This document shows, piece after piece, positions 43,938 to 62,072 of a stretch of 64,000 nucleotides of DNA; the stretch's first letter is position 1; each line of letters begins with the position of its first letter. The translations under genes were made by a program, and so were the position numbers. Location: positions 1-64,000 of the forward strand of contig JAIOPP010000156.1 in NCBI GenBank assembly GCA_021413845.1, in the 5' to 3' direction. Below the pieces are notes generated by a model, which was not told the DNA's origin, made no database searches, and worked only from the letters and a program-made list of their open reading frames with translations. The DNA is from Planctomycetia bacterium (lineage in GTDB: Bacteria > Planctomycetota > Planctomycetia > Pirellulales > PNKZ01).

Positions 43938-45491
43938 CTACGATCGCTCGAGCGATTCGAGGCGGAAGCGGATCGCCGCCGCTTCCTTCTTCTTTTTCGT
44001 TTCCTCGAAAAAGGCCGCTTCATTAGCAAGCGCCAACGTCAGGGACTCCCAATTCCCTTCGCTCTCGAAGCGCTCTTGGGCCGCATGCAGCCGCTGCAAA
44101 CCTTGCTGTACATCCCCCATCATCAAGTAAGCGAGTCCGAGGTCGGCTTCGGCGTCGGCTCGCTCGGGCCACTCCAATCCATCGACCGTTTCGACCGATT
44201 TGCGCAGCAAGCCGAGCCCTTGTTGAACTTGTCCGCTCTTCAAACGCAGGCTGCCCAAAAGACCCAACGCGGCACGTGCCGGAGGCGTCGTCTTTTGGCC
44301 GGCAATGCGTACCAGGATCGCCGTGGCCGCACCGTCTTGTTGCAATTGAATAAGCGACCGTGCTTGGCGAATGCGCAACCAAGTTCTGGCATCTTCATCG
44401 CGCGAAGAAGCTTCGGCCCGCTTAAACGATACCAATGCCGCTTGACCATGCGTGCGATCGAGATACCAAATGCCGATCGCGTTCCAAACCGCGGTTTCGG
44501 CGACACTCGGATCGGCACCGGCATCCGAAGCCGTGGCATTCAAGTCGACACCGGAAACCTCGGTGCCCGGCAGCGGTTCCATGAGCTGCAATTTCTTCAC
44601 GACATCGTTCGGCCAAGGAGACTCGACCGGGCGTTGATAGCCGAGCCGCTCCCACAAGACAGGATCATGAATCGGATGGTCCGAAGCGAGAAGTTGCGAG
44701 GCAACGACCACGGCTCGTTGCCAAGTCGCGGCGGCAAGCGCCGGATCACCGGCACGACGTTGCGAGTCGCTTAACAACAACAAGAGATAAGCGGATTGAT
44801 AAGTACTCACTTGCAATGCCGCAGCTACGGCCTTCTCGAATGCCGCGGCTGCCTCGCGAGGCTTGTCGTTCAAAAGCTGCGCCGTTCCTTGAAGCTGCCA
44901 AGCGTCGATCTCCAGCAACTGCGATTCGCAATCCACGGCGAGCTTGAGCAGATGTTGATTGAGAGCGTTGTCGATCTGACCTTGCGTGAGAGAATTCTTG
45001 AAACGATTGCGAGCTTCTAAATAGGTCTGATAAGGAACGGGGTTGCGCTTGCGAGCGGCATCGAGCGTCGTCCAGTTTTGCGGCGGGCCCGACGACGAGC
45101 ATTGTCGATCATGGACTTCGGCCAGCAACGACATAGCCTGACCGTTTTGCGAAGCGGAGCCGGAGCGGAGCCATTCCAGTGCGGCCTCGGGATGACGCTG
45201 AATCCAACGCGAAGCGGCGACCGTGCGATGAGCCGTCGCCAGTTCCGATACGCGCGTCGCCAGTTCTCCGGTCGTGAGGGAAACCTCTTGGCTTTCGCCG
45301 AGGCTCTGGCCGACGATATCGAACTTCGGGGTTCCCTTCGGCGCAGGCTCTGCCTTCTTCGCTTTCTCAAAGACCTCGGCCCAATCCTTCGTAGTAGCCG
45401 GCGAAAAACAACCGCTCGACACGAGCAACAGCAGCGCAGCTGTAGCCGAGAGAATCGTAGCCTTATCGTTACGCGAAAGCGAAATCATCAT
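43938..45491 (-). CDS. TPR-containing lipoprotein of the pilus/secretion cluster
   Basis: The product is 517 residues with a lipoprotein signal (LLLLVSSGC, Cys about residue 28), anchoring it to a membrane. The mature part is almost wholly alpha-helical and contains TPR-like repeats (about 190-260 and 350-500; DKPREAAAAFEKAVAAAL, GNWESLTLALANEAAFFEE). Its position directly after the secretin gene (31 nt) suggests a secretin-assembly or pilotin/PilF-like role; this is from context only. Two Met codons in tandem (45491, 45488) could be the start. Confidence 0.75.
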   Translation of the reverse strand: MMISLSRNDKATILSATAALLLLVSSGCFSPATTKDWAEVFEKAKKAEPAPKGTPKFDIVGQSLGESQEVSLTTGELATRVSELATAHRTVAASRWIQRHPEAALEWLRSGSASQNGQAMSLLAEVHDRQCSSSGPPQNWTTLDAARKRNPVPYQTYLEARNRFKNSLTQGQIDNALNQHLLKLAVDCESQLLEIDAWQLQGTAQLLNDKPREAAAAFEKAVAAALQVSTYQSAYLLLLLSDSQRRAGDPALAAATWQRAVVVASQLLASDHPIHDPVLWERLGYQRPVESPWPNDVVKKLQLMEPLPGTEVSGVDLNATASDAGADPSVAETAVWNAIGIWYLDRTHGQAALVSFKRAEASSRDEDARTWLRIRQARSLIQLQQDGAATAILVRIAGQKTTPPARAALGLLGSLRLKSGQVQQGLGLLRKSVETVDGLEWPERADAEADLGLAYLMMGDVQQGLQRLHAAQERFESEGNWESLTLALANEAAFFEETKKKKEAAAIRFRLESLERS

Positions 45492-45522
45492 GAGGGCTTT
45501 CCAATGGAGCTAAGAATGCGCT

Positions 45523-47673
45523 TTAGTAAAGCTTGGGAACCAAGCTATGAAAGCGCAACGACTTCTGTAGCGCGTTGACCGGAGGGTTCGCACGTAAAAC
45601 TTCGATCGGAGTGAAACTATTCAACGTGCCGTTGGCATCCGGAGCGTTCGGATGCAGGCTCAGGTCTCGAATCAGGTCGTGGCTCAACTCGGCCGATTCC
45701 GATGGTGTGTTGAACACATACGGGCGGACCATGATCACGAGCTCCGTCCGTACGCGGTTCGTTTGTTGACGACGGAAAAAGAACCCGATGACCGGAAGCT
45801 TGCCGAGGATCGGTACTTCCTCACGAGAATCGGTGAGGTTTTCTTCGATCAAGCCGCCGATTGCGACAGCCAAGCCGTCTTTAGCGACGATCGTGCCGGA
45901 GACGATGGCGGTTCGCAGGACGTCGATCGGCAGCGAAACGATGTTTCCCGCCGAATTGACGAGCGGGATCGTCGCTCCGCCGACGTCGACCGTGGAATTC
46001 TGCTGCGAGATTCGCAGCGTCACCGTACGGTCGGCGTTGATGTTCGGCGTGATGAGCAGGCCTTGCCCGACTTGCGTGAGCTGCGTTTCCGGCGAAGGCT
46101 GAACGCTCGTCGTCGCCGCGTTGTTCGTCACCGCACCAGATTGCGAATAGCCGATGACGAGCGGAATCTGCCGGCCGATGAAGATATTGCTGACTTCATT
46201 ATTCGCCGTAAGCAGCAGCGGGGTCGCGAGGTTCGTAATGCGGTTGTTGTTCTCCAACAATTGGATCCGAGCGCGGAAGTTGGCATCGACGTATTGAAAC
46301 GTCAGGTCGCGATCCGAGCCGGCAAGGCTCGGAGTGATTCCGATACCGGTCTGCGAGTTGCGTCGTTCGAGATCGCTGAGAGTATCCGTGGCCGGCGCCA
46401 AAATATTGCCGGCGGTGAAGCCCGCGGCCATGGTGTTGCCGTTCGTAAACTGCCAGTCGAAGACCGAGGTAAACCGGTCTCCCAACTCCAACGACATGAC
46501 CTTCACTTCCAACAACACCAGCGGCGTCGGCACGTCGAGGCTGGAAATCAACTCACTGATGCGCTGCATGATTTGTTCGTCGCCCGTACGGACGACGATT
46601 TGATTGTTGCGACGAATCACGGTGACGTAGATCCGAGCCCGGCGGCTTCGCAACAGATCGTCGATCGCGGCCCGATCTTCCGCCGTGGACCCCACGCGAG
46701 CTTGCTCCAGCCGCTGAATTTGGTCCGCGCTCAAGTCTAATTGCTGCGGCTGAAACTGATTGTTCATTCCTTGGCCGATGCCTCCGCCTAAGCCCCCTCC
46801 GCCGATGCCTCCGCCGAATCCGCCGCCACCGAGACCACCACCCAATCCACCTCCGCCGATTCCACCACCGAGCCCACCGCCGCCGATACCACCGCCAAGC
46901 CCGCCCCCTCCGATACCGCCACCACCGATGTTACCACCTTGCCCGGAAACGCCCTGTCCGTTCTGACCGCCGACTCCGCTCGATTGGTTAAAAGCGTTCA
47001 GCAGGCTATAGCGGCTGAAGCGTTGCTGCAGGTCTTGGCTCGTGAGCTGATCACCGGCCAAGAAGCTCCCGTAGTTGAGCTGAACGCGATCGCCGAACAA
47101 ACTTTGAATCGCGATCGCAACGTCGACCGGATTGGGATACAGCAACGTAAAGACCTGCGTCTTCTCTTCACGGAAACTACCGATGTCGCTTTCGTATTCG
47201 TCGGTCGTGTAGACCCGAATGATTCCGGTGCGGCGGTCTTGGCGATAGAAAAGCTTGGCCGATCCGGCCATTTCCGTGAGTGCCGTAAACGCCTCGACGT
47301 CGCGTAAATAAATCGTCACCGGAACTTTCGCTGCGTCCGTCGACGGCACGATCTTAAGACCGGACTGATCCGACAGGACGCGTGCGGCTTCGCCGAACGG
47401 CATGTCACGAAATTCGACGAGATCCAAAGGAGCCGACGGTGCTACGATTTCGCCGACGGCCAAGTCGGGATTGGTTGCCGAGCCGGGTGCGCCGTCGGGA
47501 GGAAGCGGTGGTGCGAGTTCTTCCGCAGGAAGAATCGGCAGCGGACGGGTCGCCTCGGGCTGCTGACCGTGCGCAACGGCAACCAGCATGAACCCTGCGA
47601 GAACCAGCACGACTCGACGACGCGAGACTGCCGCAACAATCAACCCGCGCAAGATGGAATGACGTCCTTCCAT
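45523..47673 (-). CDS. Type II/IV secretin (GspD/PilQ-like) with Gly-rich insert
   Basis: The product is 716 residues from ATG 47673 (AGGAG 11 nt upstream). A signal peptide ends near VAHGQQ. An N-terminal secretin/TonB short domain (VEFRDMPFGEAARVLSDQSG) and an N1-like domain follow. Next comes a Gly-rich segment of GGGIGGGGLGG units (about residues 243-300), another N-domain (YVTVIRRNNQIVVRTGDEQI), and the secretin barrel (about 460-680; VGQGLLITPNINADRTVTLR, TIVAKDGLAVAIGGLIEENL, VPILGKLPVIGFFFRRQQTN). It forms the outer-membrane channel of the machine encoded around it. Confidence 0.92.
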   Translation of the reverse strand: MEGRHSILRGLIVAAVSRRRVVLVLAGFMLVAVAHGQQPEATRPLPILPAEELAPPLPPDGAPGSATNPDLAVGEIVAPSAPLDLVEFRDMPFGEAARVLSDQSGLKIVPSTDAAKVPVTIYLRDVEAFTALTEMAGSAKLFYRQDRRTGIIRVYTTDEYESDIGSFREEKTQVFTLLYPNPVDVAIAIQSLFGDRVQLNYGSFLAGDQLTSQDLQQRFSRYSLLNAFNQSSGVGGQNGQGVSGQGGNIGGGGIGGGGLGGGIGGGGLGGGIGGGGLGGGLGGGGFGGGIGGGGLGGGIGQGMNNQFQPQQLDLSADQIQRLEQARVGSTAEDRAAIDDLLRSRRARIYVTVIRRNNQIVVRTGDEQIMQRISELISSLDVPTPLVLLEVKVMSLELGDRFTSVFDWQFTNGNTMAAGFTAGNILAPATDTLSDLERRNSQTGIGITPSLAGSDRDLTFQYVDANFRARIQLLENNNRITNLATPLLLTANNEVSNIFIGRQIPLVIGYSQSGAVTNNAATTSVQPSPETQLTQVGQGLLITPNINADRTVTLRISQQNSTVDVGGATIPLVNSAGNIVSLPIDVLRTAIVSGTIVAKDGLAVAIGGLIEENLTDSREEVPILGKLPVIGFFFRRQQTNRVRTELVIMVRPYVFNTPSESAELSHDLIRDLSLHPNAPDANGTLNSFTPIEVLRANPPVNALQKSLRFHSLVPKLY
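46780..46950. repeat. Imperfect in-frame tandem repeat encoding Gly-rich linker of the secretin
   Basis: Repeating CC(G/A)CC(G/A/T) triplets, in imperfect longer units, encode GGGIGGGGLGG-type sequence on the minus strand. Such an array is prone to slippage in steps of three, so length may vary between strains. Confidence 0.75.
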
Positions 47674-47774
47674 GGACCGCAAGCTCCTAACGCGAATCAT
47701 TCGCGTTGCCGTGTTCACCAAGACTTCAGCTTGGCGTTAATTCTCAATTCGTACGCATCGCTTCATTCAATCGC

Positions 47775-48440
47775 TTAATTCAAATAAATCGTCTGCTTTC
47801 GATCTACGATCTCGATATGCAACTCCGAAATGCTCAACTCCGTAACCTTGAGCTGCATCGCTCCTCTTGCGCCGGGAATCTGAATCTCGGAACCCATGCG
47901 AATCGTCAACGGCTTGCCGCCGACTTCGATAATGGCAACCGGCGGCTTATTGCGAGCGAACACTCGGGCCAGAATACGAATCTCCGGCAACGGCGGAGGC
48001 CCTGCCGAAGCATTGCGATTCGCGTCGCCGTCGCCGATCAATCGACGCATATCCGGGCCGGGCATCGTCGGATCGGAGCCGGCACCGGAAGGGGGCCGAC
48101 GATCGCCCCCGCCATCAACGGCATCGAGCCCGGCACCGACCGGAGCATTTGCAGCCGGAGCACCCGCAGCGGGATTCACCGCAGCAGGGCTATCGGGTCC
48201 GACAAGACGAAGCTGACCGGCCGCAGTAGAAGGAGCCACACCAGAGGCAGGCCCGGAGCCGGGAACGCCCGGCGGTGGCGAGGTAGCCGGAGGGCGAGGA
48301 GCGCCGGGCGGCAATCCGCTTCGCGGCGGCTGCGCGACGACCGACGCTACGGCCGAAACACAAAACACGAAAGCAGTGATCGATGCGGCCGCAGAAAAAC
48401 GAGACACGCTTCGCAACGTCGGCTGAATTCGCATACGCAT
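47775..48440 (-). CDS. GspC/PilP-like pilus assembly protein
   Basis: The 221-residue product starts at ATG 48440, with AGGAGG about 10 nt upstream inside the gspF end; the frame is open to 48581 but that part lies within gspF. An N-terminal signal or anchor (AAASITAFVFCVSAVASVVA) is followed by a long Pro/Ala/Gly-rich linker (about 30-145). A C-terminal beta domain (IRILARVFARNKPPVAIIEV, GGKPLTIRMGSEIQIPG, QLKVTELSISELHIEIV) resembles the HR/PilP domain that links inner-membrane components to the secretin. The gene order just ahead of the secretin supports this. Confidence 0.7.
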   Translation of the reverse strand: MRMRIQPTLRSVSRFSAAASITAFVFCVSAVASVVAQPPRSGLPPGAPRPPATSPPPGVPGSGPASGVAPSTAAGQLRLVGPDSPAAVNPAAGAPAANAPVGAGLDAVDGGGDRRPPSGAGSDPTMPGPDMRRLIGDGDANRNASAGPPPLPEIRILARVFARNKPPVAIIEVGGKPLTIRMGSEIQIPGARGAMQLKVTELSISELHIEIVDRKQTIYLN

Positions 48441-48444
48441 GGCG

Positions 48445-49662
48445 TCACGCGCCTCCTGCCGAGAAGAGGGCCATGAAAAACGCAATGTATACGAAGCCGA
48501 CGATGCCGCCGACGATGACGATGATGCACGGCTCGACGATGACGCTGAGCTGGCGAACGGCGGATTGAAGTTGTGATTCATGAAATCGCGCTACCTCATC
48601 GAGAACTTCATCGATCGTACCTGCCGATTCGCCTACGGCGACCATGCGAGCCAACATCGGCGTGAATGCGTGGTCGGCAGCAAGCGGTTCGGCTAGCGTG
48701 CCTCCTTGCATCACAGCCTGGCGTGCCGCTGCGACGCGGCTGGCTAGGTAGCGATTGGTAAGGAGTTCTTCCGTGGTGCGGAGGCCTTCCAACAGGGTGA
48801 TCCCGCTGCGGACTAAAATTCCGAGCGAACGGGAGAAAGCTGCGGTGCCGGCGAGTCGCAAGAGGTAACCGATAACGGGAACTTGCAACAACCGACGATC
48901 GATAGCTAGCCTGCCGAAGGGGTTGCAGTATAGCGCTACGAAGGCGACGGTCAATATCAGTATGCCGATAAGAGTGTGCGGCAGATACGTTCGCGCAGCA
49001 TCCGATACATCGACGAGAAGTTGGGTGATCGGGGGGAGCTTGCGGCCCATACCATCGAGGAACGTTTTCAGCTTCGGGATCACGCCCACCACCATGAATG
49101 CGGTGACGCCGACCGCCGCAAGCAACACCAGCGATGGATAGGCCAGTGCCGTCATCAAGCTGGCTTTCAACTGCCGGCGGCGTTCAAGCGTATCCGAGGC
49201 TCGATCGATCGTTTGCTCGAGGTTTCCCGTTTGCTCACCGACGCGCACCAATTGCACGAGCAACATCGGAAAGCTCTTTGCCTCTTTCATCGCATCGGCG
49301 AAGGCGGCCCCTTCTTGAATGCGCGATGCTACGCGCCCCCAAAGACGCTGCATGCAGTATCGGCCCGATTGACGAGAGACCGCTTGCAGCGATGTCAGCA
49401 ACGTCAAGCCACCGCGAAGCATCACAGCGAGTTGCTTGCCGCTTTGCTCGATTTCGATCGACCGAGGAGGCAACAATTCCAAGGGATTGTAACGCTTCCA
49501 AAGCTCACCGATCGATTGGTCCGTCTCGGCGGCGCGAACGTCGACGACCATCCAGCCGCGCTGACGCAAGCTTTGAACGGCCGTCGGCGCCGAGGCCGCC
49601 TCCAGCAAGCCGGCTTGTGCCCGCCCTGAGGCGTCGCGCGCGCGAAATTGAAAACTGGGCAT
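48445..49662 (-). CDS. GspF/PilC inner-membrane platform protein
   Basis: The product is 405 residues. The N-terminus (FQFRARDASGRAQAGLLEAA) and two T2SSF domains (about 70-195 and 270-395) are typical, with the motif GGLTLLTSLQAVSRQSG, and three membrane spans (about 170-190, 220-240, 375-400). It connects pseudopilins to the cytoplasmic ATPases. It lies 11 nt after gspE and 4 nt before the GspC-like gene. Confidence 0.93.
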   Translation of the reverse strand: MPSFQFRARDASGRAQAGLLEAASAPTAVQSLRQRGWMVVDVRAAETDQSIGELWKRYNPLELLPPRSIEIEQSGKQLAVMLRGGLTLLTSLQAVSRQSGRYCMQRLWGRVASRIQEGAAFADAMKEAKSFPMLLVQLVRVGEQTGNLEQTIDRASDTLERRRQLKASLMTALAYPSLVLLAAVGVTAFMVVGVIPKLKTFLDGMGRKLPPITQLLVDVSDAARTYLPHTLIGILILTVAFVALYCNPFGRLAIDRRLLQVPVIGYLLRLAGTAAFSRSLGILVRSGITLLEGLRTTEELLTNRYLASRVAAARQAVMQGGTLAEPLAADHAFTPMLARMVAVGESAGTIDEVLDEVARFHESQLQSAVRQLSVIVEPCIIVIVGGIVGFVYIAFFMALFSAGGA

Positions 49663-49673
49663 CGCTTAACGCC

Positions 49674-51176
49674 TTACCACGTCGTGACTGCCGACAGCGC
49701 TTCGCGCACCGTCGTCAGACCGGAGGAGATTTTTTGAAACGCATCGTCCGTGAGCCGCGGAGTTCCCTTGGCTCTCGCCAAGCCGACGATCTGCGCCTCT
49801 TCGGCGCCGTTGGCGATTTCAAGAGCCAGCTCTTCGTCGATCGACAGAAGCTCGAACAAGCCGAGACGACCGGTATATCCGCGATTTGCGCAATAAAGAC
49901 ATCCTCCCGGCTGATAGACCGTCATTCCCGCCGCGCTCGGACGATCCAAAGCCAGCGCTTCGGAAACGCTTAACTCCACCGGTCGTTTGCAGTGCTGACA
50001 CAACCGTCGCACCAATCGCTGAGCAACGGCGAGCCGCAACGTCGCTCCGGTCAGATAGCGGTCGACTCCCATGTCGCTGAGTCGGGTGATTACGCTAGCC
50101 GCGGAATTCGTGTGCAGCGTGCTGAGCACGAGATGCCCCGTGAGCGAAGCCTTGATCGCGACGTCGGCCGTTTCGCGATCCCGAATTTCACCGATCATCA
50201 CGATGTCGGGATCGTGCCGCAACACGCTTCGCAGCGCCTTGCTGAAGCTCACCTTATCGGCCGAGTCGACTTCGACCTGAGCAACGCCGGGAATGCCGTA
50301 TTCGATCGGATCTTCGATCGTGACGATGTTCCATTCTTCGTGCGCAATGAGCTTGCGCAGCGCCGCATAAAGGGTCGTCGTCTTACCGCTTCCGGTCGGG
50401 CCCGTCAGCAGAATCATCCCGTGCGGCTTGTCGATCGCGTTCTCGAACGAAGTGAGGTCGGTGGGGCACATGCCCAGGCGTTCGAGCGTCAGCGATTCGG
50501 TTTGCAACGCCAACAGCCGGAGCGTCATGCGCTCGCCGTACTTCGTCGGTAGGGTCGCGGCTCGAATGTCGATCGACTGTCCGGTCGGGCCAAACTTATG
50601 GCTGAAGCGGCCGTCTTGCGGGGCCCGTTTTTCGGCGATGTCCATTTCGCCCAAGACCTTGAACCGGCTGACGAGCGTCGTGTGCACGGCCAACGGCAGC
50701 TTGCGATAGCGTTCGAGTTGCCCATCGACTCGAAAGCGGATCTGCACACCGTCTTCATAAGGATCGATATGCACGTCGGATGCTTGGCGCACGATCGCCG
50801 CGTGGAGCAATTCGTCGCAGATGCTCGTCGAGTCCTTCGCGTCGGCATCGTTGCCGCGCGGATCGATTCGGCCGCGCGTGGGAACGATGACCGTCGACGG
50901 ACCTTTGCCGTCGCCGAAAATTCTCGCCAGAACACGTTTCAAAGATTCCGGCTCGGCCCGCTCTGCGCGGATCGGCAGATCGATCAAGCGTTGCACCGCT
51001 TGCAACGCACCGGCATCGTTTTCATCCACGCAAGCGACGTAGACGATCCCCTCGATCGACGCGAACGGAAGCACCAAGCGCCGCAGCGCCAACGTCGAAG
51101 GAATGCGCAAGGCCCAGGCGGGATCGACGCGGACCTGATCCATATCGAGCGGCGCATTTTGCGAGACGGGGCTCAT
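49674..51176 (-). CDS. GspE/PilB-type assembly ATPase
   Basis: The product is 500 residues. An N-terminal GspE/PilB N1-like domain (about 10-100) leads to the hexameric ATPase core with Walker A GPTGSGKTTT, Asp box IEDPIEYG, Walker B IVMIGEIRDRETAD and His box STLHTNSA. A zinc motif is present: CQHC near residue 400 and CLYC about 32 residues later. It drives pilus or pseudopilus assembly. Its ATG overlaps the TGA of the PilT-like gene (ATGA), so translation is coupled. Confidence 0.94.
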   Translation of the reverse strand: MSPVSQNAPLDMDQVRVDPAWALRIPSTLALRRLVLPFASIEGIVYVACVDENDAGALQAVQRLIDLPIRAERAEPESLKRVLARIFGDGKGPSTVIVPTRGRIDPRGNDADAKDSTSICDELLHAAIVRQASDVHIDPYEDGVQIRFRVDGQLERYRKLPLAVHTTLVSRFKVLGEMDIAEKRAPQDGRFSHKFGPTGQSIDIRAATLPTKYGERMTLRLLALQTESLTLERLGMCPTDLTSFENAIDKPHGMILLTGPTGSGKTTTLYAALRKLIAHEEWNIVTIEDPIEYGIPGVAQVEVDSADKVSFSKALRSVLRHDPDIVMIGEIRDRETADVAIKASLTGHLVLSTLHTNSAASVITRLSDMGVDRYLTGATLRLAVAQRLVRRLCQHCKRPVELSVSEALALDRPSAAGMTVYQPGGCLYCANRGYTGRLGLFELLSIDEELALEIANGAEEAQIVGLARAKGTPRLTDDAFQKISSGLTTVREALSAVTTW

Positions 51177-52381
51177 TTAGCTGCTCCCTGAACACGGAAG
51201 GGGCCGTTGCCCCGTTGCACTGGCATCCGTGCGATACGATCTCGAACGACGGCCGGGTTGCGCGACATGTTCGTCGCCGTGTGTTCGGAAATCCAACCGG
51301 TGCTCCAGAGCTTCGCCAGACTTTCATCTTGCGTTTGCATTCCGGCACCACCGCCCGACTCCATCGCCGAGTAAATCTGAGAAGCTTTTCCTTGAGCGAT
51401 CAAGTTGTTGATGGCTCCGGTTGCGAACAGCACTTCGCTGACGACGATGCGCCGCCGCCGAATCGTGCCGTCGGCCGCCGGCTCCAAGACTCCGCGCTCG
51501 CCGTCGGCCACGAGCAAGTGCTGCGTTACGATCGCACGCAACACCAGCGACAATTGACGTCGAATCCCGTTTTGCTCATCGGCAGGAAACACCGAGACGA
51601 GCCGCTCGATCGTGCCGACGCAGTCGCCGGCATGGACCGTCGTAAACACGAGATGTCCGGTCTCGGCGGCCGTGATGGCCGTGCGGATCGTATTCAAGTC
51701 TCGAATTTCGCCGACCAAGATCACGTCGGGATCTTGCCGCAACGACGCGACCAACGCATCATTGAAGCCGCCGGTGTCGAGCCCCACTTGGCGTTGATTC
51801 ACCAGGCTCATCGCCGACGGATGCAGATATTCGATCGGATCTTCGATCGTTACGATGTGCGAACGGCGCGTTTTGTTGACCCGATCGATCAACGTAGCGA
51901 GGGTCGTGCTCTTACCGGCGCCGGTCGGGCCGGCGACGACGACCAACCCGTCGGGCAGCGAACAAAGATCGTACAACGTGTCGGGCAAACCGAGATCGGC
52001 CAACGTACGGAACTTATCTTCCAATCGCCGCAGCGCGATCGAAATAGCGCCTTGGCGACGAAAGACATTGAAGCGAAACCGCGTGCCGTCCGGCGCGGTT
52101 AAGGCCCCGTCGATGGAGCCGGTAATGTCGAGCGATTTGCGATCGAATGCGCGTGCGAGGATTTCGCCCATCGCTTGCGTCGCAGGCACCGACAGGATGC
52201 CGAAATCATCTTGCGTTTCTAAGATGCCGTGGATGCGCAAATAAGCCGGCAATCCGGGCGCAATGTGCAGATCGGAGGCGTCTTGAAGAACGCATTGCTC
52301 CATCAATTGCGCAAGTAAACGCTCGGCGCTCTCGAATTCGGCCGGCGTGATCGGGACCTGAGATTCCGACTTTAGATCCAT
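51173..52381 (-). CDS. PilT-like twitching/retraction-type ATPase
   Basis: The product is 402 residues from ATG 52381; a TTG at 52396 would add five residues. The core has Walker A GPTGAGKSTT, IEDPIEYLHP, ILVGEIRDLNTIRTAITAAE and TTVHAGDCVGTIERLVSVFP. The N-terminal half carries the PilT-type segment (ASDLHIAPGLPAYLRIHGIL). No zinc motif is present, as in PilT. It overlaps the GspM-like gene by 10 nt and gspE by 4 nt. A retraction ATPase next to gspE argues for a retractile pilus, not a pure secretion system. Confidence 0.88.
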   Translation of the reverse strand: MDLKSESQVPITPAEFESAERLLAQLMEQCVLQDASDLHIAPGLPAYLRIHGILETQDDFGILSVPATQAMGEILARAFDRKSLDITGSIDGALTAPDGTRFRFNVFRRQGAISIALRRLEDKFRTLADLGLPDTLYDLCSLPDGLVVVAGPTGAGKSTTLATLIDRVNKTRRSHIVTIEDPIEYLHPSAMSLVNQRQVGLDTGGFNDALVASLRQDPDVILVGEIRDLNTIRTAITAAETGHLVFTTVHAGDCVGTIERLVSVFPADEQNGIRRQLSLVLRAIVTQHLLVADGERGVLEPAADGTIRRRRIVVSEVLFATGAINNLIAQGKASQIYSAMESGGGAGMQTQDESLAKLWSTGWISEHTATNMSRNPAVVRDRIARMPVQRGNGPFRVQGAAK

Positions 52382-52971
52382 AGCAACAACGTCCAACTAC
52401 GCCACGCGGTTTCCGAGCTTGTTTCCGACATCGAGAGCGCCACCGGAATGACCGACGAACCGGAATCGCGGAGCGACTCCAGTGTTTCCAGTACATCGGC
52501 ATAACGTCCGTAAAATCGAATCTTCCAAAGCCGCGTCGTGCCTGGCGACGTGTTGTCTTTGTTCAAGCGATTAAGGGCTTCCTGAAAGGAAGGAGGGAGA
52601 TCTCCCGAGTTCGTCGCAGCCGATTCCTCGAAAGGATAGAGTCCTCGATCCCAAAGCATTTTCGAAATCTGGCGCAAGGCGTTCGTGCGGAGTTGGGGCT
52701 CCGTAATTTGCATCGCTCCCAGCGACTTCCAGCGCGCGTCCCATTCCGTTTTTTCTTTCTTAACGCCGTCCAACTTCTCTTGCGAGTTTTCCAGCTTCAG
52801 CTTTTCCGCCACGACATCCATCGGCGAGACCGCCGAAGGACGGAGCGCTTCCAGCGACTTGCTTGCCGCCTTCAATTCGGAATCGCGACTATACCCCAAC
52901 ACATAGCCGCCGATGACGAGCAATGCCGGAAGCAGCATGACGAGCATCTGTTCGCGTGGTGTTTTACCCAT
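52372..52971 (-). CDS. PilO/GspM-like inner-membrane protein
   Basis: The 199-residue protein has one membrane span near the N-terminus (MLVMLLPALLVIGGYVLGYS), a periplasmic coiled-coil (about 45-95; AEKLKLENSQEKLDGVKKEK) and a C-terminal ferredoxin-like domain (RLWKIRFYGRYADVLETLES). This layout matches PilO/GspM, which pairs with the PilN/GspL partner encoded just upstream. Sequence identity is low, so the call leans on architecture and position. Confidence 0.7.
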   Translation of the reverse strand: MGKTPREQMLVMLLPALLVIGGYVLGYSRDSELKAASKSLEALRPSAVSPMDVVAEKLKLENSQEKLDGVKKEKTEWDARWKSLGAMQITEPQLRTNALRQISKMLWDRGLYPFEESAATNSGDLPPSFQEALNRLNKDNTSPGTTRLWKIRFYGRYADVLETLESLRDSGSSVIPVALSMSETSSETAWRSWTLLLWI

Positions 52972-53018
52972 AGTAATCTACGCTTTGCGAAGCACGAGAA
53001 AGTGAAGTCGAAATAATC

Positions 53019-54461
53019 TCAAGGGGCCGGGACGCGAACGATCGTACTCGGCGGTGTCGGAATGGCGCTGGGGGAAGTACCGGTCGGAATCGGCTTCGGA
53101 ACGTTTAAGTCTCGCAGTTGGATCTCGAACGTCCAAGGGCCGCCGTTTTCCTTCAGGTTGCGAGCCGATTGCTTAGCCGGATCGACGGCCCAACCGAGAG
53201 CACCGAAATCCGTAGTGATTTCCGCAGTCAGTTCGGCGATATGCTCCGGATGCATCGTCACTCCGGAGAGCGTAATCTCACGCCCGTTGGCGGAGATTTT
53301 CTGAAGCACCCAATCGTGCGTCGCATCGTCGGAAAGTCGGCGCATCATTTCAGCCAATCGCCGACGGTGCGAATGAAATACCTCTTCGGTCCGTTGAACG
53401 TCGTTGGCAAGCCTTTTCTGTTCCCCTTCGACTTTCGTCAACTCGGTCTCTAACGTCTTGATCTGGGCTTTGATTGCGTCCACCTCTTTGCCGGGCGCTT
53501 CGAGTCGAGTTTTTTCGGCAGCGACCTTCGCGATTTCCGAGGCGACCCAAAAGTTGTGTGCGTAACAGGCTCCGACGACGATCAGCCCCATCACGCCGGC
53601 AACCATGTTTCGCTGTCGCGCCGTCATGCGGCGTGCGGCCGGCACGATCATCGGCACGGCGATCGTCTTAGCGCGCACGGCTTGATGCCAGGCCGCGAGC
53701 CAACGCCGTAGCGTGTCGTCATCTTCCAACAGCGAGAACGACGTGGCGCCGAGATCCGAATCGGCGTTCGCCGGGACGCTCCCTTCCGGAATGACGACGG
53801 CTACTTGCGTCGCGCTGCTTTGCTGCTTCCAAGCAGTCGCGACTGCCGACCAATTCGCCGCGACGGCCCCGTCGTCGACATGGGCCTTCGTGACGTTCCC
53901 TTCTAAGCAGACCGTCCGCACCACGGCACCAGGCCAAAACTCGACCCGGCCGGGAATGCCGACCGCCGGCGCAAGACCGAATTGATACGGCACACCGCCC
54001 GGATGCGCAATACCTGCGAATCGGCCGCCGAGCTTGCGCACCGCTTCATCGAGTTGGTCTCGAACGGCACTGCTGACTTGCGTAAGCCAAAAATGTCGTT
54101 GGCCTGCAGTCTCTCCGAGCGGCAGAGAAGCGGCCGTCGCTTCGAACGCGCTGATGCCCGAGATCGGCTCCGCCTCGAAGTTCAGCATCTGCAGTAATTC
54201 TTCGGCACTCAAACCATACGTGTTTCCCGAAGCCAGCGCGATCGTATGCGTCCACACATCGCCGGATAAAACGAAGACGCGCCCCGGCTTGCGACGATCG
54301 AAACCGATCGCCGTTTCCACAAGCGCGACGGGATCGTCGAGATGCGGACGCTCGCGCACGACGAAGACCGCCGGCTCGGCAGCGCGTGCCGAGGCGTAAT
54401 CGGCCCGAATGAGCCGATCGCGCGTCACGACGATGATCGTTATGGAATTTGAGAACAGCAT
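53019..54461 (-). CDS. PilM-PilN (GspL)-like fusion protein
   Basis: The product is 480 residues. The N-terminal 270 residues are a cytoplasmic actin-like GspL/PilM domain of divergent form (AEELLQMLNFEAEPISGISA, HFWLTQVSSAVRDQLDEAVR). One membrane span follows (about 285-305; RNMVAGVMGLIVVGACYAHN), then a coiled coil (VDAIKAQIKTLETELTKVEG), then a C-terminal PilN-type ferredoxin-like domain (WVLQKISANGREITLSGVTM). In most type IV pili PilM and PilN are separate. It lies 47 nt upstream of the PilO-like gene. Confidence 0.75.
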   Translation of the reverse strand: MLFSNSITIIVVTRDRLIRADYASARAAEPAVFVVRERPHLDDPVALVETAIGFDRRKPGRVFVLSGDVWTHTIALASGNTYGLSAEELLQMLNFEAEPISGISAFEATAASLPLGETAGQRHFWLTQVSSAVRDQLDEAVRKLGGRFAGIAHPGGVPYQFGLAPAVGIPGRVEFWPGAVVRTVCLEGNVTKAHVDDGAVAANWSAVATAWKQQSSATQVAVVIPEGSVPANADSDLGATSFSLLEDDDTLRRWLAAWHQAVRAKTIAVPMIVPAARRMTARQRNMVAGVMGLIVVGACYAHNFWVASEIAKVAAEKTRLEAPGKEVDAIKAQIKTLETELTKVEGEQKRLANDVQRTEEVFHSHRRRLAEMMRRLSDDATHDWVLQKISANGREITLSGVTMHPEHIAELTAEITTDFGALGWAVDPAKQSARNLKENGGPWTFEIQLRDLNVPKPIPTGTSPSAIPTPPSTIVRVPAP

Positions 54462-54499
54462 TACTTACTACAGGCTCTATGGAAGATCAAATCGAGTGC

Positions 54500-55444
54500 T
54501 CATTGCAATCGCAAATCAACGACGTAGAGGGAGCCCGCCCGCACGATGATCGCGGCGCTGGCCTTTTTCTTAGTCGTCACCGTCGTAGGAGCACCACTAT
54601 CGGGATCGGGATCACCCGGGCTAGTTCGTTCCAACGTCGCTTTCACGACGCGAGGCCCTAGCACGGGTTTGTTAAATGCGTAACGGTAGGTCGGTGCGTC
54701 GGGTGTCTGCGTGAACTCCGCCACACCATCGGCGTCGATAGGCGGAACGACATGATCCGGAGCGAACAACCTCACTTGGATCGTCAGCGTCTCGCCGGTA
54801 CCGGTCGTCGGCGCGACCCATTGGCCGCCGACCAGTTCCAGGATACTCCCCGAAATCGATTCGCCGTAGAAAGAATCGGCCGAAGTCGTCAGAGGGAGCG
54901 AAAAGCCGAGATCCTTCGAATAGGTATCGGGGCCGCCGAGCGCGTAGTCCGACCCAAGGCTCGCCACGGTGAGGCCGTTCGAGGTGTCGAAGGCAAAGGG
55001 ATTTCCCCAACCGTCGCGCAGCATCGTCGCTCCGGCGGGCAAACGCATGTAAGGACCTCGCCAGCCTCGGGCGACCGTCACATCGGAGTCGTCCCCGGCG
55101 AGCGCGCCGCTATGAAAGTCCGCGAGGCCGTCCATCTTCATAAACAATTCGTCGATGCTCATCGGCAGCCGGCCTACGTCGGCCACGAAGCTGGGCGCCG
55201 AGGCATTCACGTCGGTCGTATTGGTCGGACGGCCCACGATCGCGGCTCGCAGCTCATCCAACGTCTTCTGCGTGGCATCGACGCGCGATTGCTTGCTCAA
55301 CGGCTCGAGCGACTGCACGGCGACCGTCGTCAGCACCGCCAGGATGCTCAAGACGATAATCATCTCCAGCATCGTGAACGCGCTACGGCGCAGCCGCATG
55401 CCGGCGGTCGAAAGTCGCGAATTCAAAGTATGACGCATCGGCAT
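54500..55444 (-). CDS. Pseudopilin (GspG/GspH-like), copy A
   Basis: The 314-residue product starts at an ATG that overlaps the previous stop in a TAATG. The prepilin leader ends RRSA before FTMLEMIIVLSILAVL, with Glu at +5; the residue before cleavage is Ala instead of Gly. The mature protein contains GspG-like features (DELRAAI, RGWRGPYMRLPAG, GWGNPFAFDTSNG) and a long C-terminal beta region. It is expected in the inner membrane and pilus fibre. Confidence 0.87.
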   Translation of the reverse strand: MPMRHTLNSRLSTAGMRLRRSAFTMLEMIIVLSILAVLTTVAVQSLEPLSKQSRVDATQKTLDELRAAIVGRPTNTTDVNASAPSFVADVGRLPMSIDELFMKMDGLADFHSGALAGDDSDVTVARGWRGPYMRLPAGATMLRDGWGNPFAFDTSNGLTVASLGSDYALGGPDTYSKDLGFSLPLTTSADSFYGESISGSILELVGGQWVAPTTGTGETLTIQVRLFAPDHVVPPIDADGVAEFTQTPDAPTYRYAFNKPVLGPRVVKATLERTSPGDPDPDSGAPTTVTTKKKASAAIIVRAGSLYVVDLRLQ

Positions 55445-56238
55445 TATTTCCACGACTTCAAGGGCAGGGCGATGTCATCGCCGAGCGTCAGCACGCCGGT
55501 CGTAGTGTTGGACGTGATATCTAAAGTCTTATTAGGGCCGGCCGACACGACATAAGCCGTGTTCATCAGCACGCCGCCGTGCGGAGTAGTCTGAATCGAA
55601 ATCACGATCGGGCTTCCCCACGAGTCGGGCACCATGTAGTCCCCCTCTTGGCCGAAAGTCGTCGTGAAACCGAAGTCCTTCCATTTACGCGTGTCGTTTT
55701 TGTCGGTGGGATAACGAGCATCTTCCGGATTGGGATACTTCAACGTCTTGCTCATCAAGTACGGGCCGTTCCAACCGAGGCGCGTCGAAGCGTCGTAGTC
55801 GCCGATCGCCGCATAGCGCACGGTTACTGCCGGCGTGGCGTCGTACTGTCGCGGATTGACGAACAGGAAATGCAGCTGCGGCAAATACTTGAGCTGCTCC
55901 GTCGTGGTGCCGAGCGTGCTTGCGCGAGTCGTGTCGGGATAAGTAGGCGGAGTTCCGGGAATGGCATGCAAACGGGGCAAGCCCTGAAACCCGAGCGAGT
56001 CGGCCATGTCGTGCATATACCGATCGGCAATGACGTCGCGCAGTTCTTGCACCGAAACTTTGGCGACGGCGCTGCGCGTCTCCTCTTGCGTGTTCGTCAT
56101 GCCCGGCACGACCAAGGCGGTGAGAATCGCGAGGATCGAAACGACCATCACGAGTTCTAAGAGCGTGAGTCCTCGGCGCTGGGCGAACGCTCGCGAAGCA
56201 CCCCGAACGGGAACGTGTGTTGAGAATGAGTATCGCAT
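55444..56238 (-). CDS. Pseudopilin (GspG-like), copy B
   Basis: The 264-residue product starts at ATG 56238; the frame is open to 56439 but that part is not pilin-like. The leader ends in QRRG, followed by LTLLELVMVVSILAIL, with Glu at +5 and the canonical Gly at -1. The segments RLGWNGPYLM and DSWGSPIVISI are the GspG-type conserved turns. It overlaps copy A by TAATG, so the pair is translationally coupled. Confidence 0.88.
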   Translation of the reverse strand: MRYSFSTHVPVRGASRAFAQRRGLTLLELVMVVSILAILTALVVPGMTNTQEETRSAVAKVSVQELRDVIADRYMHDMADSLGFQGLPRLHAIPGTPPTYPDTTRASTLGTTTEQLKYLPQLHFLFVNPRQYDATPAVTVRYAAIGDYDASTRLGWNGPYLMSKTLKYPNPEDARYPTDKNDTRKWKDFGFTTTFGQEGDYMVPDSWGSPIVISIQTTPHGGVLMNTAYVVSAGPNKTLDITSNTTTGVLTLGDDIALPLKSWK

Positions 56239-56308
56239 ATGGTTAGTCTCGATTTTCAAGCGGAGAATTTCGTACGAGTCTTCAAGCCAGAGCAACAAGC
56301 CTACCGGA

Positions 56309-57112
56309 CTATCGATCCGTAAAGGCGTTGTTGTAGTTTTCCATGTTCCTTCGCGCGGTCGTGCCGTCGGGCATGAAGCAGCCGACGTATCGCGCCGGAA
56401 ACGAGGTCGTCGCCGCGTTGGAAGGAACCATATACACACAGCAGACGCGAGCGTAGTAGTTGTTCGGGTCGGCGCACTGCATCAATGGAATCTGCATCAT
56501 CACCGCTCCCTGAATCGTCGTCCCGCTGCCGAGCCCGAACACGATGTATTCGTTGCTGAGATCGCCGTCGCTGAATCGATTGACCTTAAAATCGGTGTCG
56601 AGAACCGTCGCCGAGTCCGGGGCCCCGACCTTCTTCAAAACCGCGACTTTTCCGGACGCGACCAGCTTCCGAGGCGTAAGGTTGTTGGCGCTCGGCGACA
56701 TCGAAGTCGTCGCAATCGCTTCGTCTGAATCTCGAACGTTGTAGATCCCGGCGCTGTTCAAGCTTTCCAACTGCAACGCGGTCAACGAAGTGGGGACGAT
56801 CAACACCGGGTTAGCCGCCCCTAGTGAAGGATGCAGACCGGCGTAAATAGTCCCTCCCGAAGTGTTGAGCAACGAATCCCAACCGTCGGGATGAGCATTG
56901 AGCCGTATTGCAAAAGTTTCCACCGAGCGATTCACATCGTCTATCACCGTGGCATTGATCGCGGCATTTGTCTGAAAGCCGAGACCTTGAACCAACGGCA
57001 CGACCAAGCCCGAAAGCGCAACGAGAATCGCGACGACGACGACCAGTTCGATCAACGTCAACGCACGACGTCGGGGCTTGCCCGAAACGCGCTCCGTCGG
57101 TTGAAGTTTCAT
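56309..57112 (-). CDS. Large pseudopilin, copy C
   Basis: The product is 267 residues from ATG 57112; an ATG-equivalent start 9 nt earlier is possible. The leader ends RRRA before LTLIELVVVVAILVAL, with Glu at +5 and Ala at -1. The C-terminal half has YIVFGLGSGTTIQGAVMMQI followed by P-L-M and YYARVCCVYMVP, a block shared with copies D and E. The body is larger than usual minor pseudopilins (about 150-200 residues). Confidence 0.85.
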   Translation of the reverse strand: MKLQPTERVSGKPRRRALTLIELVVVVAILVALSGLVVPLVQGLGFQTNAAINATVIDDVNRSVETFAIRLNAHPDGWDSLLNTSGGTIYAGLHPSLGAANPVLIVPTSLTALQLESLNSAGIYNVRDSDEAIATTSMSPSANNLTPRKLVASGKVAVLKKVGAPDSATVLDTDFKVNRFSDGDLSNEYIVFGLGSGTTIQGAVMMQIPLMQCADPNNYYARVCCVYMVPSNAATTSFPARYVGCFMPDGTTARRNMENYNNAFTDR

Positions 57113-57293
57113 AAAACACACGGGTCGTAAGTGAAACGCTGCGGCAAAGGACTGACACTTCTCGAAGGAAACACGGCTCGAAGGCGACCTAACACGAAAT
57201 CATTTTCCCGCCGGCTCTATCCTCTCGCACATGCAACATAATTGCAAGTGCAAGAAGATTGTCGCCGGCATGATGATTCTCTCTATGCTGAGA

Positions 57294-58169
57294 TCAATTG
57301 GCTCCGTTGTTGAATGCTCGTACGTTATCACTCAGGCAAGTCCCGTCCGGCGCAAACGAACCGACGTATTGGGCAGGGAAGTAAGTCGCGGTCGTCGCGA
57401 TTCCCGGAATCCGGAACACGATCAACATTCGGGAGTAGTATTTCGTCGGGTTCGCAGCTTGCACGATCGGAGCATCTTGCAGCGCCTTGCCGCGCAGTTC
57501 GCCCGGCTGGCCGACCCCGAACACGACGAACGAATCCGTCTTGCCGTAGTTGAACGGATTGAGATTGAAAGCCCGATCCGGAAACGTCGAACCGTGCGCA
57601 GTCCAGGGGGGCGTCGTCGCCGTGTTCCCGTAACCACCGAGCGGAATGAACAGGCCGGCGACATTGCTCCCTGTCGTGATCGAACTATACGCGGTTCCGC
57701 TATCGCTCGGCATGCCGGTCGGGTTGCTCGACGCACCAACCGACTCGGTGTTGTAATGCGCGCTGACGATCCCCATGTCGTTCAGGCTCTTCGCTTGGAT
57801 CGCGGAAAGCGTGAGCGGATACAAAATCGGGAGCATCGGATCGGCAGTTGCCGTAGCGCCGCCGGTCTGAATACTCGGATGGAACTTGCTGTAGAAAGTC
57901 GTACTGGCAGAGCCGGTGAGCAGCCCGTCGTTGGCGCTCGGGAACTTGCCGTTATTCCGGCTCTCGAAGGTGCTGACCGCGCGGTTCATATCGGAGATGA
58001 TCGACGCATCGACGGCCGAATTGGCTTGGCCTGTCATGCCGGCCAACTTCGGCAACACGACCGCCGCCAAGACCGACAAGATCGCGAGTACGACGACCAA
58101 TTCAATCAACGTCAAAGCGCGCCGCACGCCCCTTTGCGAAGCGAGGGGAGAGAAAAAACGAAAAGACAT
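57294..58169 (-). CDS. Large pseudopilin, copy D
   Basis: The 291-residue product starts at ATG 58169 with AAGGA 9 nt upstream; the frame extends to 59258 without pilin character. The leader ends GVRRA before LTLIELVVVLAILSVL (Glu +5, Ala -1). The C-terminal half has SFVVFGVGQPGELRGKALQD followed by AP and YYSRMLIVFRIP, the same block as in copies C and E. It is likely a surface-exposed minor pilin. Confidence 0.87.
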   Translation of the reverse strand: MSFRFFSPLASQRGVRRALTLIELVVVLAILSVLAAVVLPKLAGMTGQANSAVDASIISDMNRAVSTFESRNNGKFPSANDGLLTGSASTTFYSKFHPSIQTGGATATADPMLPILYPLTLSAIQAKSLNDMGIVSAHYNTESVGASSNPTGMPSDSGTAYSSITTGSNVAGLFIPLGGYGNTATTPPWTAHGSTFPDRAFNLNPFNYGKTDSFVVFGVGQPGELRGKALQDAPIVQAANPTKYYSRMLIVFRIPGIATTATYFPAQYVGSFAPDGTCLSDNVRAFNNGAN

Positions 58170-58357
58170 AAAATAGATCCTTGAATCGAATAAATTCACT
58201 AGATTAAGAAACGTCGGGCGCAATTTCGCGGCGGCTTCTTGCGAGCGCAGCGAAACTACGCATGCACGACCTTGCTCGGGCACGAAGCCTAAGCGCCGCT
58301 CGATTGCGGCCGACGTGCAGACGACATCTAAGTGAGGGAAGCGAGCGAGCCCGCTCC

Positions 58358-58993
58358 CTAAACGATTCTCGGAGGACGCCGCAGCGGCGTGGAAAAAGCC
58401 GACTCCCACAAGGGATCGGCAAGACGAACAAGCGGTTGCACGAGCGCGTGCATAGCAACGCAACGCAACGGCTCGGCGGCAGGAAGGCTGATCGGCGTGT
58501 TGAACCATTCGGCAGTCGCACCGCCGGAGCAGCGCTGAGCCGCGAGATAACCGATCCAACGAACTTCGCTCTTCGGTTGCGAAGCAGCCGTGGCTTCTTT
58601 CTTCTTGGTGTCCGACTTCTCGACGACGGTTTTCTTCGGCGAGCGCGACGACTTGCTGCAGCAACCGCTCGACGACGCATCGCCGGCAGCGATCGGTCCC
58701 GCTACGAACGCCACGTAACTCGGAGGAACGACTCCGTTGCGCTCGGCCCAAAGCCTCTTCTCGACGTCGGTCATGCAACAGCACGACTTCCAACATTGCT
58801 CGGCCGTTCGGCAACCGCAGCGATGCGACTGGCAGGGAAATGGAGCCGCCGGTGATTCGTTCGACGAAGAGGCATGCGAAACGTCGGGCAACGGAATTCC
58901 CGTGCAGAGCACGAGATAAGCCGCCAGCGCAATACCGCCCACGATCCGCCGGCCTAGCGGTGTGCGATGTTGCGATGATCCGATCCTGCGCAT
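58358..58993 (-). CDS. Cys-rich protein of unknown function inside the pseudopilin cluster
   Basis: The 211-residue product has an N-terminal hydrophobic segment (RIVGGIALAAYLVLCTGIPL), probably a signal or anchor. Then comes a dense Cys block, FPCQSHRCGCRTAEQCWKSC followed by CCMTDVEKRLWAERNGVVPP, and a later SGCCSKS. The spacing looks like a metal-binding or disulfide-rich module. I recall similar blocks in other planctomycete hypothetical proteins but cannot name a family. It sits between pseudopilin D and E on the same strand; an association with the machine is inferred from position only. The longer frame to 59056 adds a Arg-rich stretch. Confidence 0.6.
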   Translation of the reverse strand: MRRIGSSQHRTPLGRRIVGGIALAAYLVLCTGIPLPDVSHASSSNESPAAPFPCQSHRCGCRTAEQCWKSCCCMTDVEKRLWAERNGVVPPSYVAFVAGPIAAGDASSSGCCSKSSRSPKKTVVEKSDTKKKEATAASQPKSEVRWIGYLAAQRCSGGATAEWFNTPISLPAAEPLRCVAMHALVQPLVRLADPLWESAFSTPLRRPPRIV

Positions 58994-59184
58994 CACGGAA
59001 TAACCTAACTCGTTCGCTGGGCTGACCTGCGACCGAGCGTTCCGAAAACGGCACACGCACCGAATCGCAAGTCGTCAGTTTACGCCCCGCAACAGGCACG
59101 GTAAAGCAGTTGCTTCCCAAGCCCTGTGAAACCGAACATCGGCAATCCCTCGAAATTGCGGGAAACGGGACGAACCGAGATGAC

Positions 59185-59219
59185 AAAAACCGGGCCGGTT
59201 GCGCAAGCAACCGGCCCGG
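59185..59219 (-). terminator. Intrinsic terminator after pseudopilin E
   Basis: A perfect 13-bp stem CCGGGCCGGTTGC / GCAACCGGCCCGG (59190-59202 and 59207-59219) with a GCAA loop is followed on the minus strand by TTTTTG. It begins 39 nt past the pseudopilin E stop, so E may be transcribed separately from the downstream genes. Confidence 0.85.
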
Positions 59220-59257
59220 AAGTTCGTCCATACGCGTTCGTAGCTGCAAATCCGCCA

Positions 59258-60199
59258 TTAATTACGTGGATCGCGAGATACTTGGTAGTAACCGACGATG
59301 TCTTTTTCGGTCGTTTCCAATTCGTCGTCTTCGAGGGCGACCGTGCAAACGAAACGAGCCCGTTCGCTACGCTCGACTTCGACCCCGCTGATTTTGAAGA
59401 TCGCTCCGACGCGGCAGTAAGTATTGTCCGGCGTGAAGGACTTCTTCTGCGGCGTCGACATCGGAGCTTCTTGGATCGTTTGGCCGATCATCGATGAGCG
59501 CGAACCGACACCGAACACGACGTAGCGCGCCGTCGGATCGGCATCGCGCAACGTTTGTAAGAAGCGGGCCGGAACCTTCGTGGTCGTCGTCGTGGTCGTC
59601 GTCCCGCCGCTTCCATCAGGGGCCGTGGTGGTAACGGGGAGGTTGAGGATCGCGAATTTCGTCGTCGTGTTTCCGGATACGGTGACCTTGTTCGAGGCGA
59701 TCGTCGAGCCGCTCGGATAAGGATTCATCGTGGGATGAAAGCCTGCCGAATAGTCGGCCGCCGTAGGTGCCGCGGTAGGCGCAGACAACAACGGTTGAAC
59801 AAACGCGATTCCCACCCGGTTGAGCGCACCGGCTTCATCCGCAGTGAGGGTAGCCGCCTTAACGAAGCCGCCGAAGGGGCCGTCTGCCGCATCATCGGTC
59901 GGCAAATAAGTCGGAAACGCACCATCCGCGCCGACGAGCGAATCGAAGTTGTCGGGATAGCTGATGAACGAGGCTTGATACATCTGAATCGCTTTGGAAA
60001 GTTCACCGGTTTGCGTCGCGTCGGTGGCTTTGTGAGCCCTGCGAAGCAAATTCGGTAGGAGCGGCGCGAGGATTCCTGCAACCGCCGCCAACACCGCCAA
60101 CACCACCACAAGCTCCATCAAGGTCAAACCAGCCCGTTTGATCCGTCGCGATATGTTGCTCCAAGTCGCGCCCTGGTTGCCGCCGATACGAGTCGTCAT
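59258..60199 (-). CDS. Large pseudopilin, copy E
   Basis: The product is 313 residues from ATG 60199 (AAGAGG 7 nt upstream). The leader ends IKRAG before LTLMELVVVLAVLAAV, with Glu at +5 and the canonical Gly at -1. A Thr-rich insert (TTTTTTTTK) lies near residue 215. Then comes YVVFGVGSRSSMIGQTIQEA with PM and YCRVGAIFKIS, the block shared with copies C and D. It is the first pilin gene of the cluster and ends at a strong terminator, so it may be the major subunit. Confidence 0.88.
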   Translation of the reverse strand: MTTRIGGNQGATWSNISRRIKRAGLTLMELVVVLAVLAAVAGILAPLLPNLLRRAHKATDATQTGELSKAIQMYQASFISYPDNFDSLVGADGAFPTYLPTDDAADGPFGGFVKAATLTADEAGALNRVGIAFVQPLLSAPTAAPTAADYSAGFHPTMNPYPSGSTIASNKVTVSGNTTTKFAILNLPVTTTAPDGSGGTTTTTTTTKVPARFLQTLRDADPTARYVVFGVGSRSSMIGQTIQEAPMSTPQKKSFTPDNTYCRVGAIFKISGVEVERSERARFVCTVALEDDELETTEKDIVGYYQVSRDPRN

Positions 60200-60572: not shown

Positions 60573-60772
60573 TTAATGAGACAGTGTTTCAACTCGCTTG
60601 CGATTGTAAACGAATCGCCGGCAAGGTCAAGCATTTTGATTGATAAATTGTTTTACGAAGAGGTTTCGAGGAATATCAATCAAAGCAAAAACGAGCAAGT
60701 GGCAGCCGTTCAACTGTTGACGAGGCCCTGAAAATGGATAAGGTAGCATCATTCGATAACAAGTCTCATTAA
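60573..60772. promoter_or_regulatory. Paired 10-bp inverted repeat arms ahead of the propeller gene
   Basis: TTAATGAGAC (60573-60582) is repeated in inverted form GTCTCATTAA at 60763-60772, ending 13 nt before the ATG at 60786. The flanks also agree partly (TCTTTAATGAGAC against TCTTAATGAGAC). The arms could be two half-sites of a looping regulator. Confidence 0.4.
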
Positions 60773-62000: not shown

Positions 62001-62072
62001 GCGGAAAGCTGGATGGTTCGTTTGCGTTTCGCATCTTCATTTTTCCGTTTTGCTTTCAGGATTTTAAGCTTT

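Follow-up and report, generated by a model that had tools for sequence, protein, structure and literature searches.

What kind of machine is encoded by the minus-strand genes between positions 43938 and 60199 of a 64,000-nucleotide stretch of planctomycete DNA (contig JAIOPP010000156.1; here, the window), and what might it do? A first-pass annotation had described a contiguous set that combines parts of pili and of secretion systems, and all of the genes that it listed are present, each at the place and on the strand it had been given. The run is unbroken and tight. In the order of transcription it comprises a prepilin, a Cys-rich ORF, three further prepilins (two of family pil345, then pil2), the prepilin pil1, L, M, T, E, F, P, D and a TPR lipoprotein. 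ORF starts are uncertain in the high-GC DNA of the window. The features are:

60603..60630, minus strand: match to a sigma-70-like promoter ahead of the first pilin gene, weak as evidence; the region has no more such matches than shuffles
59258..60199, minus strand: first prepilin (family pil345), N_methyl match, Glu5 present
59190..59219, minus strand: strong terminator-like hairpin after the first pilin gene (13 pairs, 11 of them G-C, then TTTTT; z -4.5)
58358..59056, minus strand: Cys-rich ORF, N-terminus signal-like; no part of the core, and kept only in a same-genus genome
57294..58202, minus strand: prepilin, family pil345 (N_methyl, 25.5 bits)
56309..57121, minus strand: prepilin, family pil345 (N_methyl, 21.4 bits)
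55444..56238, minus strand: prepilin pil2, GspG-like N-terminus (TIGR01710, E 9.8e-8, under the cut-off)
54500..55399, minus strand: prepilin pil1, predicted GspG-fold module plus C-terminal beta-sandwich module at about residues 178-299 (structure model, fold matches)
53019..54461, minus strand: L, GspL-type protein with an actin-like PilM/GspL-cyto domain, a membrane helix and a PilN-like ferredoxin domain (model, fold and profile matches)
52372..52971, minus strand: M, GspM-like inner-membrane protein in the PilO position (T2SSM match in 5 of 17 family members)
51173..52381, minus strand: T, PilT/PilU-family ATPase (TIGR01420, 369.7 bits; tree; motifs)
49674..51176, minus strand: E, GspE/PilB-type assembly ATPase with an MshEN match and a tetra-Cys motif (Pfam/NCBIfam; tree)
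48445..49662, minus strand: F, GspF/PilC-type inner-membrane platform (T2SSF, E 8.9e-53)
47775..48476, minus strand: P, protein in the PilP/GspC position, start uncertain (alignment)
45523..47721, minus strand: D, secretin with a Gly-rich insertion, start uncertain (Pfam Secretin, E 1.6e-32, and Secretin_N)
43938..45491, minus strand: TPR lipoprotein in a pilotin-like position (TPR matches, lipobox)

Counting from L, the second pilin ORF starts near 56238, not 56439, and the fourth near 58202, not 59258. The T gene probably starts at the ATG at 52381, and the E and T genes share a 4-base overlap. The Cys-rich ORF and the hairpin lie inside the set and were absent from the first-pass annotation. 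The ORF is 41% identical over 200 aa to a homologue at the same place in a same-genus genome (locus L038, 15839-16420); it has no Pfam match, and no homologue outside that genome was found among the loci. Divergent PQQ/BamB-like and Kelch genes stand beside the pilin genes (60786-63167, plus strand), and only the same genus (L224) keeps them next to the machine, at 58% and 55% identity.

There is no type IV leader (prepilin) peptidase gene in the window, as had been pointed out, and in the 7.08 Mb genome (167 contigs) matches to this peptidase are found only on contigs C109, C25, C9 and C20, the last of these to a 466-aa protein. The same genome has 13 matches to T2SSE-family ATPases, and contig C36 carries a separate pilus locus with its own PilT and two PilB-like ATPases. 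It also has two further secretin-plus-ATPase loci (L052 on G000:C75 and L053 on G000:C57), the secretin ORF on C75 being unusually long at 1356 aa.

The protein that had been described as a GspL-type PilM-PilN fusion is, judging from its predicted structure (pLDDT 84.5), indeed of GspL type: an actin-like domain leads into a membrane helix, and the C-terminal domain is ferredoxin-like. Its N-terminal ~270 residues match the PilM and cyto-GspL structures 2ych, 5eou and 1yf5 at Z 13-14, tied with other actin-like folds, and by profile its C-terminal part matches Myxococcus PilN (3jc8_N, E 1.6e-9). Such a fusion is the ordinary architecture of GspL, and the protein is hence a T2SS-like feature and not an anomaly. 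M is GspM-like at the level of the family, five of whose 17 members match T2SSM (best E 1.1e-4) and one of which matches PilO weakly; the M of the window itself has no T2SSM match. Single-sequence Pfam and NCBIfam scans left the M and P of the window unnamed, PDB profile searches with either returned chance coiled-coil or unrelated rows only, and nothing came up when P, L and M were compared by hhalign with individual Gsp proteins of E. coli K-12, a comparison for which lone sequences have too little power. P has a signal-like N-terminus (secreted), a DPTxP motif and a short C-terminal part, and sits in the place of PilP or GspC. It has no reliable match by Pfam, PDB profile or hhalign, and a GspC with an HR (substrate-binding) domain was not detectable. 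Planctomycete loci have orthologues of the TPR lipoprotein at the same position. Members of the proteobacterial branch lack it there, and their secretin gene is followed by one for a Pom-family (Protochlamydia) outer-membrane protein (PF17251; L063 16663-17913, L078 15502-16656, and Methylococcales loci L238-L241 and L244-L249).

All five ORFs with a prepilin N-terminus keep Glu at +5 (N_methyl matches), so that a GspK-type subunit is absent, and none of them matched GspH, GspI, GspJ or GspK above the curated cut-offs. The first prepilin is 54% identical to its orthologue in a same-genus genome. The second pilin from L is pil2, a position kept across loci. In the predicted model of pil1 (pLDDT 80.4), residues within 22-176 match GspG major pseudopilin structures at Z 10.1-11.3, well above all other VIA-align rows (best 3gn9, Z 11.3, rmsd 1.9 over 98 residues); plain Foldseek had listed no pilin, and the GspG rows came from the second look with VIA-align. 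Residues 176-299 of the model form a separate beta-sandwich with CnaB-, transthyretin- and Ig-like rows (Z 5.5-7.5), perhaps simply a common arrangement. Members of the pil1 family share conserved WRGPY...DGWG motifs. In modular pilins such as Streptococcus sanguinis PilB, a non-pilin module is grafted on a small pilin module, and large modular pilins are known to display modules for adhesion, whose probable site is the tip of the filament (PMC8179133). The grafted module of PilB is vWA, whereas pil1 would combine a GspG-type pilin with a predicted Ig/CnaB/transthyretin-like beta-sandwich.

The hairpin at 59190-59219 comes shortly after the end of the first pilin gene. When hairpins with a stem of at least 10 pairs lying no more than 140 bp from a gene's stop were counted in 36 loci, terminator-like hairpins were found near the first-pilin stop in 14, namely 13 within 140 bp and that of L038 slightly further away, and their sequences differ. 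Hairpins of the same type follow just 6 of ~300 other module genes, with 0.00 expected in shuffles. As its gene is followed by such a hairpin, the first pilin is probably the major subunit; on the simplest reading it would be overproduced on a short transcript, with read-through supplying the remaining genes.

The assembly ATPase E matches the Pfam T2SSE and MshEN families (5e-123). T passes the curated pilT_fam model TIGR01420 (cut-off 319.1 bits), and its Walker A and Walker B motifs are intact. The motif AIRNLIRE, which is required for PilT retraction (PMC4471445), has become AINNLIAQ in the T of the window, and none of the 17 T proteins of the family keeps it: position 3 is always changed, and so in most is the terminal RE. 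The family mostly has A-V-A-N-L-I-A-T, and most members fit the pattern A-V/I-A/N-N/H-L-I-A. With this motif altered, T may not retract in the usual way. Since the genome has a second PilT, beside the C36 pilus locus, the T of the window is an extra, dedicated copy. In the PilT tree a single clade (90/99) holds all 17 T proteins of the family and excludes those of ordinary pili, both PilT and PilU, among them the other PilT of this genome. T is present in ~23 loci, some on partial contigs, and absent from ~19, among them 13 of the 13 Methylococcales loci read, so it is not essential to the machine. Because the T clade is monophyletic and T-bearing members fall in both main sub-clades of the E tree, we infer that T was probably ancestral to the family and has been lost several times independently. 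Plasmid records returned only ordinary GspE relatives, at ~40% identity.

The first-pass annotation had suggested that the machine is specific to planctomycetes, and that a separate clade with a conserved gene order in other Planctomycetes would support it. The order pilins-L-M-(T)-E-F-P-D is kept in more than 40 loci from several phyla, with the pil345 type first among the pilins, then pil2 and pil1, and in planctomycetes the TPR lipoprotein after D. A gene order that recurs across phyla excludes chance for the gene set. The supposed restriction to planctomycetes does not hold, the carriers being Planctomycetota, Verrucomicrobiota, Kiritimatiellota, Methylococcales and Methylophilaceae. Outside Planctomycetota the named carriers are Prosthecobacter, Kiritimatiellae, Methylotuvimicrobium buryatense 5G, uncultured Methylococcaceae, Methylophilus and Methylotenera. 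Within Planctomycetota, L matched in 16 of 392 genomes from many families, a lower bound given by a single-sequence query. Further loci were read around the best ATPase relatives among named genomes, and many of the loci come from fragmentary MAGs. A search with the L alignment found full-length L at ≥277 bits in 23 of 201 Methylococcales genomes; the weaker matches there were mostly to the C-terminal part, in frames of ~200 aa, as expected of canonical PilN. The Verrucomicrobiota sample gave strong matches in seven genomes, and module genes were present in four loci read. A Lentisphaerae MAG had an ATPase match only, and one carrier MAG, labelled Rhodospirillaceae, is possibly misbinned. A second sub-clade of the family is formed by marine Pirellulales and Methylophilaceae members (L072, L075, L068 and L069), with T kept in the Pirellulales and lost in the Methylophilaceae. 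Planctopirus and Gemmata have dextran-binding pili-like fibres (PMC5394234), but the idea that these are linked to the machine was dropped, as most of the sampled planctomycete genomes, by the same single-sequence search, have no match.

The family also stands apart in the trees. In the careful E tree it is one clade at 100/100, with T2SS (100/99) and PilB (99/99) in separate clades, and it is again one clade when PilT is the outgroup (SH-aLRT 94). It is likewise a single clade in the secretin and platform trees (SH-aLRT 100 in each). In a concatenation of E, F and D, the family (100/100) is set on a long stem, apart from T4aP (100/100) and T2SS (100/100). The ATPases and the secretin thus fall outside the T2SS and T4aP reference clades, in a reference set that is small and holds one MSH system. 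The trees show a family that is old and coherent, not a recent mosaic. The description as a hybrid does fit the gene content, which joins GspL, GspM-like and GspG-fold parts to a PilT. Of the curated T2SS, type IV pilus and MSH models, the PilT subfamily alone was passed; the GspE (484.5 against 630.25 bits), GspF (306.7 against 424), GspD (159.2 against 351.35), MshL (104.3 against 250.2 for the secretin), PilB and PilQ models all scored far below their cut-offs.

These results are best read as a distinct and apparently undescribed family within the type IV filament superfamily, with a T2SS-like core and a dedicated PilT. Denise et al. 2019 (PMC6668835) define T2SS, T4aP, T4bP, MSH, ComM and Tad; another 884 systems are given there as 'generic', with no type assigned. 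The family may be among these 884, and the words Planctomycetes and Verrucomicrobia are absent from the main text of that paper. A literature search of open-licence papers found no description of the family. As to function, the interpretation that we prefer, at something short of even confidence, is that the locus encodes a complete machine, separate from T2SS, T4aP and MSH, for a retractile pilus used in adhesion or capture.

The strongest competitor, and a real possibility, is T2SS-type secretion, in which a periplasmic pseudopilus would work as a piston, driving folded proteins out by way of the secretin, and PilT would reset it. The family shares with T2SS the GspL architecture, the GspM-like M, the GspG-fold pseudopilin, the GspE/F-type motor and platform and the secretin. 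GspE is the best ATPase model for E (at 484 bits), and in the E tree T2SS lies next to the family, if only at 89/75. However, the family differs from T2SS in its dedicated PilT, which T2SS lacks (PMC6668835), and in having no Glu5-less GspK-type pilin, no identifiable GspH, GspI, GspJ or GspK and no detectable GspC with a substrate-binding domain. At least one of its pilins bears an extra module, and its separate clade and its GspD, GspE and GspF scores also set it apart. Near the secretin, some methanotroph loci encode a subtilase that is secreted and has a dockerin-like domain, but neighbouring hydrolases are not conserved across the family. In M. buryatense the gene for this S8 subtilase (L221, 3248-5932) is close to those for the secretin and for a pilin, and the only other loci with homologues are L239 and L241. 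Behind it in the M. buryatense locus come MoxR, DUF58 and transglutaminase genes; MoxR and a DUF58 match are also found near L078. As shared cargo these neighbours were rejected, since the subtilase, MoxR and DUF58 occur in few loci and the PQQ and Kelch genes in the same genus only. Adhesion or capture is favoured over secretion because of the extra module on pil1, the dedicated T and the absence of a detectable GspC that would recruit substrates; against this, the GspG fold and the GspL- and GspM-like parts fit secretion equally.

It is improbable that the locus is merely a diverged T2SS, T4aP or MSH system that the models missed and thus no separate family. On the concatenation, topologies that join the family to T4aP (p-AU 0.10) or to T2SS (p-AU 0.11) were not rejected, and the family joins the single long MSH row weakly (86/87), a grouping absent from the ATPase tree. 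Yet the family, T2SS and T4aP each form a clade of their own at 100/100, the family stem is long, the curated cut-offs other than that of PilT were missed widely, and the gene content fits none of the three definitions. With T4aP the family shares an assembly and a PilT motor, the platform, an alignment subcomplex, the secretin and a lipoprotein near it. It differs from T4aP in that PilM and PilN are one protein, the pilins are large and GspG-like, the genes form one compact operon, and PilT is of a distinct lineage with an altered retraction motif, as well as in its separate clade. MSH has in common with it a compact locus without a prepilin peptidase gene (as in all MSH loci in PMC6668835), a TPR protein, a small P-like protein, the secretin and the weak affinity in the tree. 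Unlike MSH, the family has no MshM ATPase, and the ORFs of the set encode no ATPase beyond E and T; its secretin is under the MshL cut-off and it has its own PilT in the locus. In an uncultured Methylococcaceae locus (L062, 6111-9184), genes for what is by sequence an apparent prepilin peptidase and for a PilT and a PilU of ordinary type stand directly downstream of the secretin, as if supplying parts that the locus lacks.

A DNA-uptake (competence) pilus with PilT as its retraction motor is very unlikely: DNA uptake is common among retractile type IV filaments that have PilT (PMC6668835), and short (pseudo)pili can suffice, but no competence gene was recognised among the scanned neighbours and the retraction motif of T is altered.

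In the adhesion or capture pilus that we prefer, a peptidase whose gene lies outside the window would cleave the prepilins. By homology, the GspE-type ATPase would dock on the actin-like domain of the GspL-type protein and drive the GspF-type platform, which would stack the prepilins. The abundant first pilin would form the shaft, with pil2 and pil1 as minor, probably tip, subunits. The filament would leave through the secretin, which L, M and P would align, and the TPR lipoprotein may help the secretin into the outer membrane. The dedicated PilT-family ATPase would then disassemble or reset the filament, so that retraction would not depend on the other PilT of the genome. What speaks most strongly against simple retraction in the manner of PilT is the altered motif of T. 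Least certain is the use of the filament, which may be a short retractile pilus that displays beta-sandwich modules and adheres to, or captures, material at the cell surface.

T2SS is thought to derive from retractile T4aP-like pili by loss of PilT (PMC6668835). The family might, more doubtfully, be a distinct class of filament, old in the PVC phyla and common to methanotrophs, whose T2SS-type platform and pseudopilins and altered PilT make it a living intermediate between retractile pili and T2SS. A family with GspL, GspM-like and GspG-type parts and a PilT of its own that has been lost repeatedly is a natural test of the role of PilT, and with relatives in the cultured methanotroph M. buryatense its function is testable.
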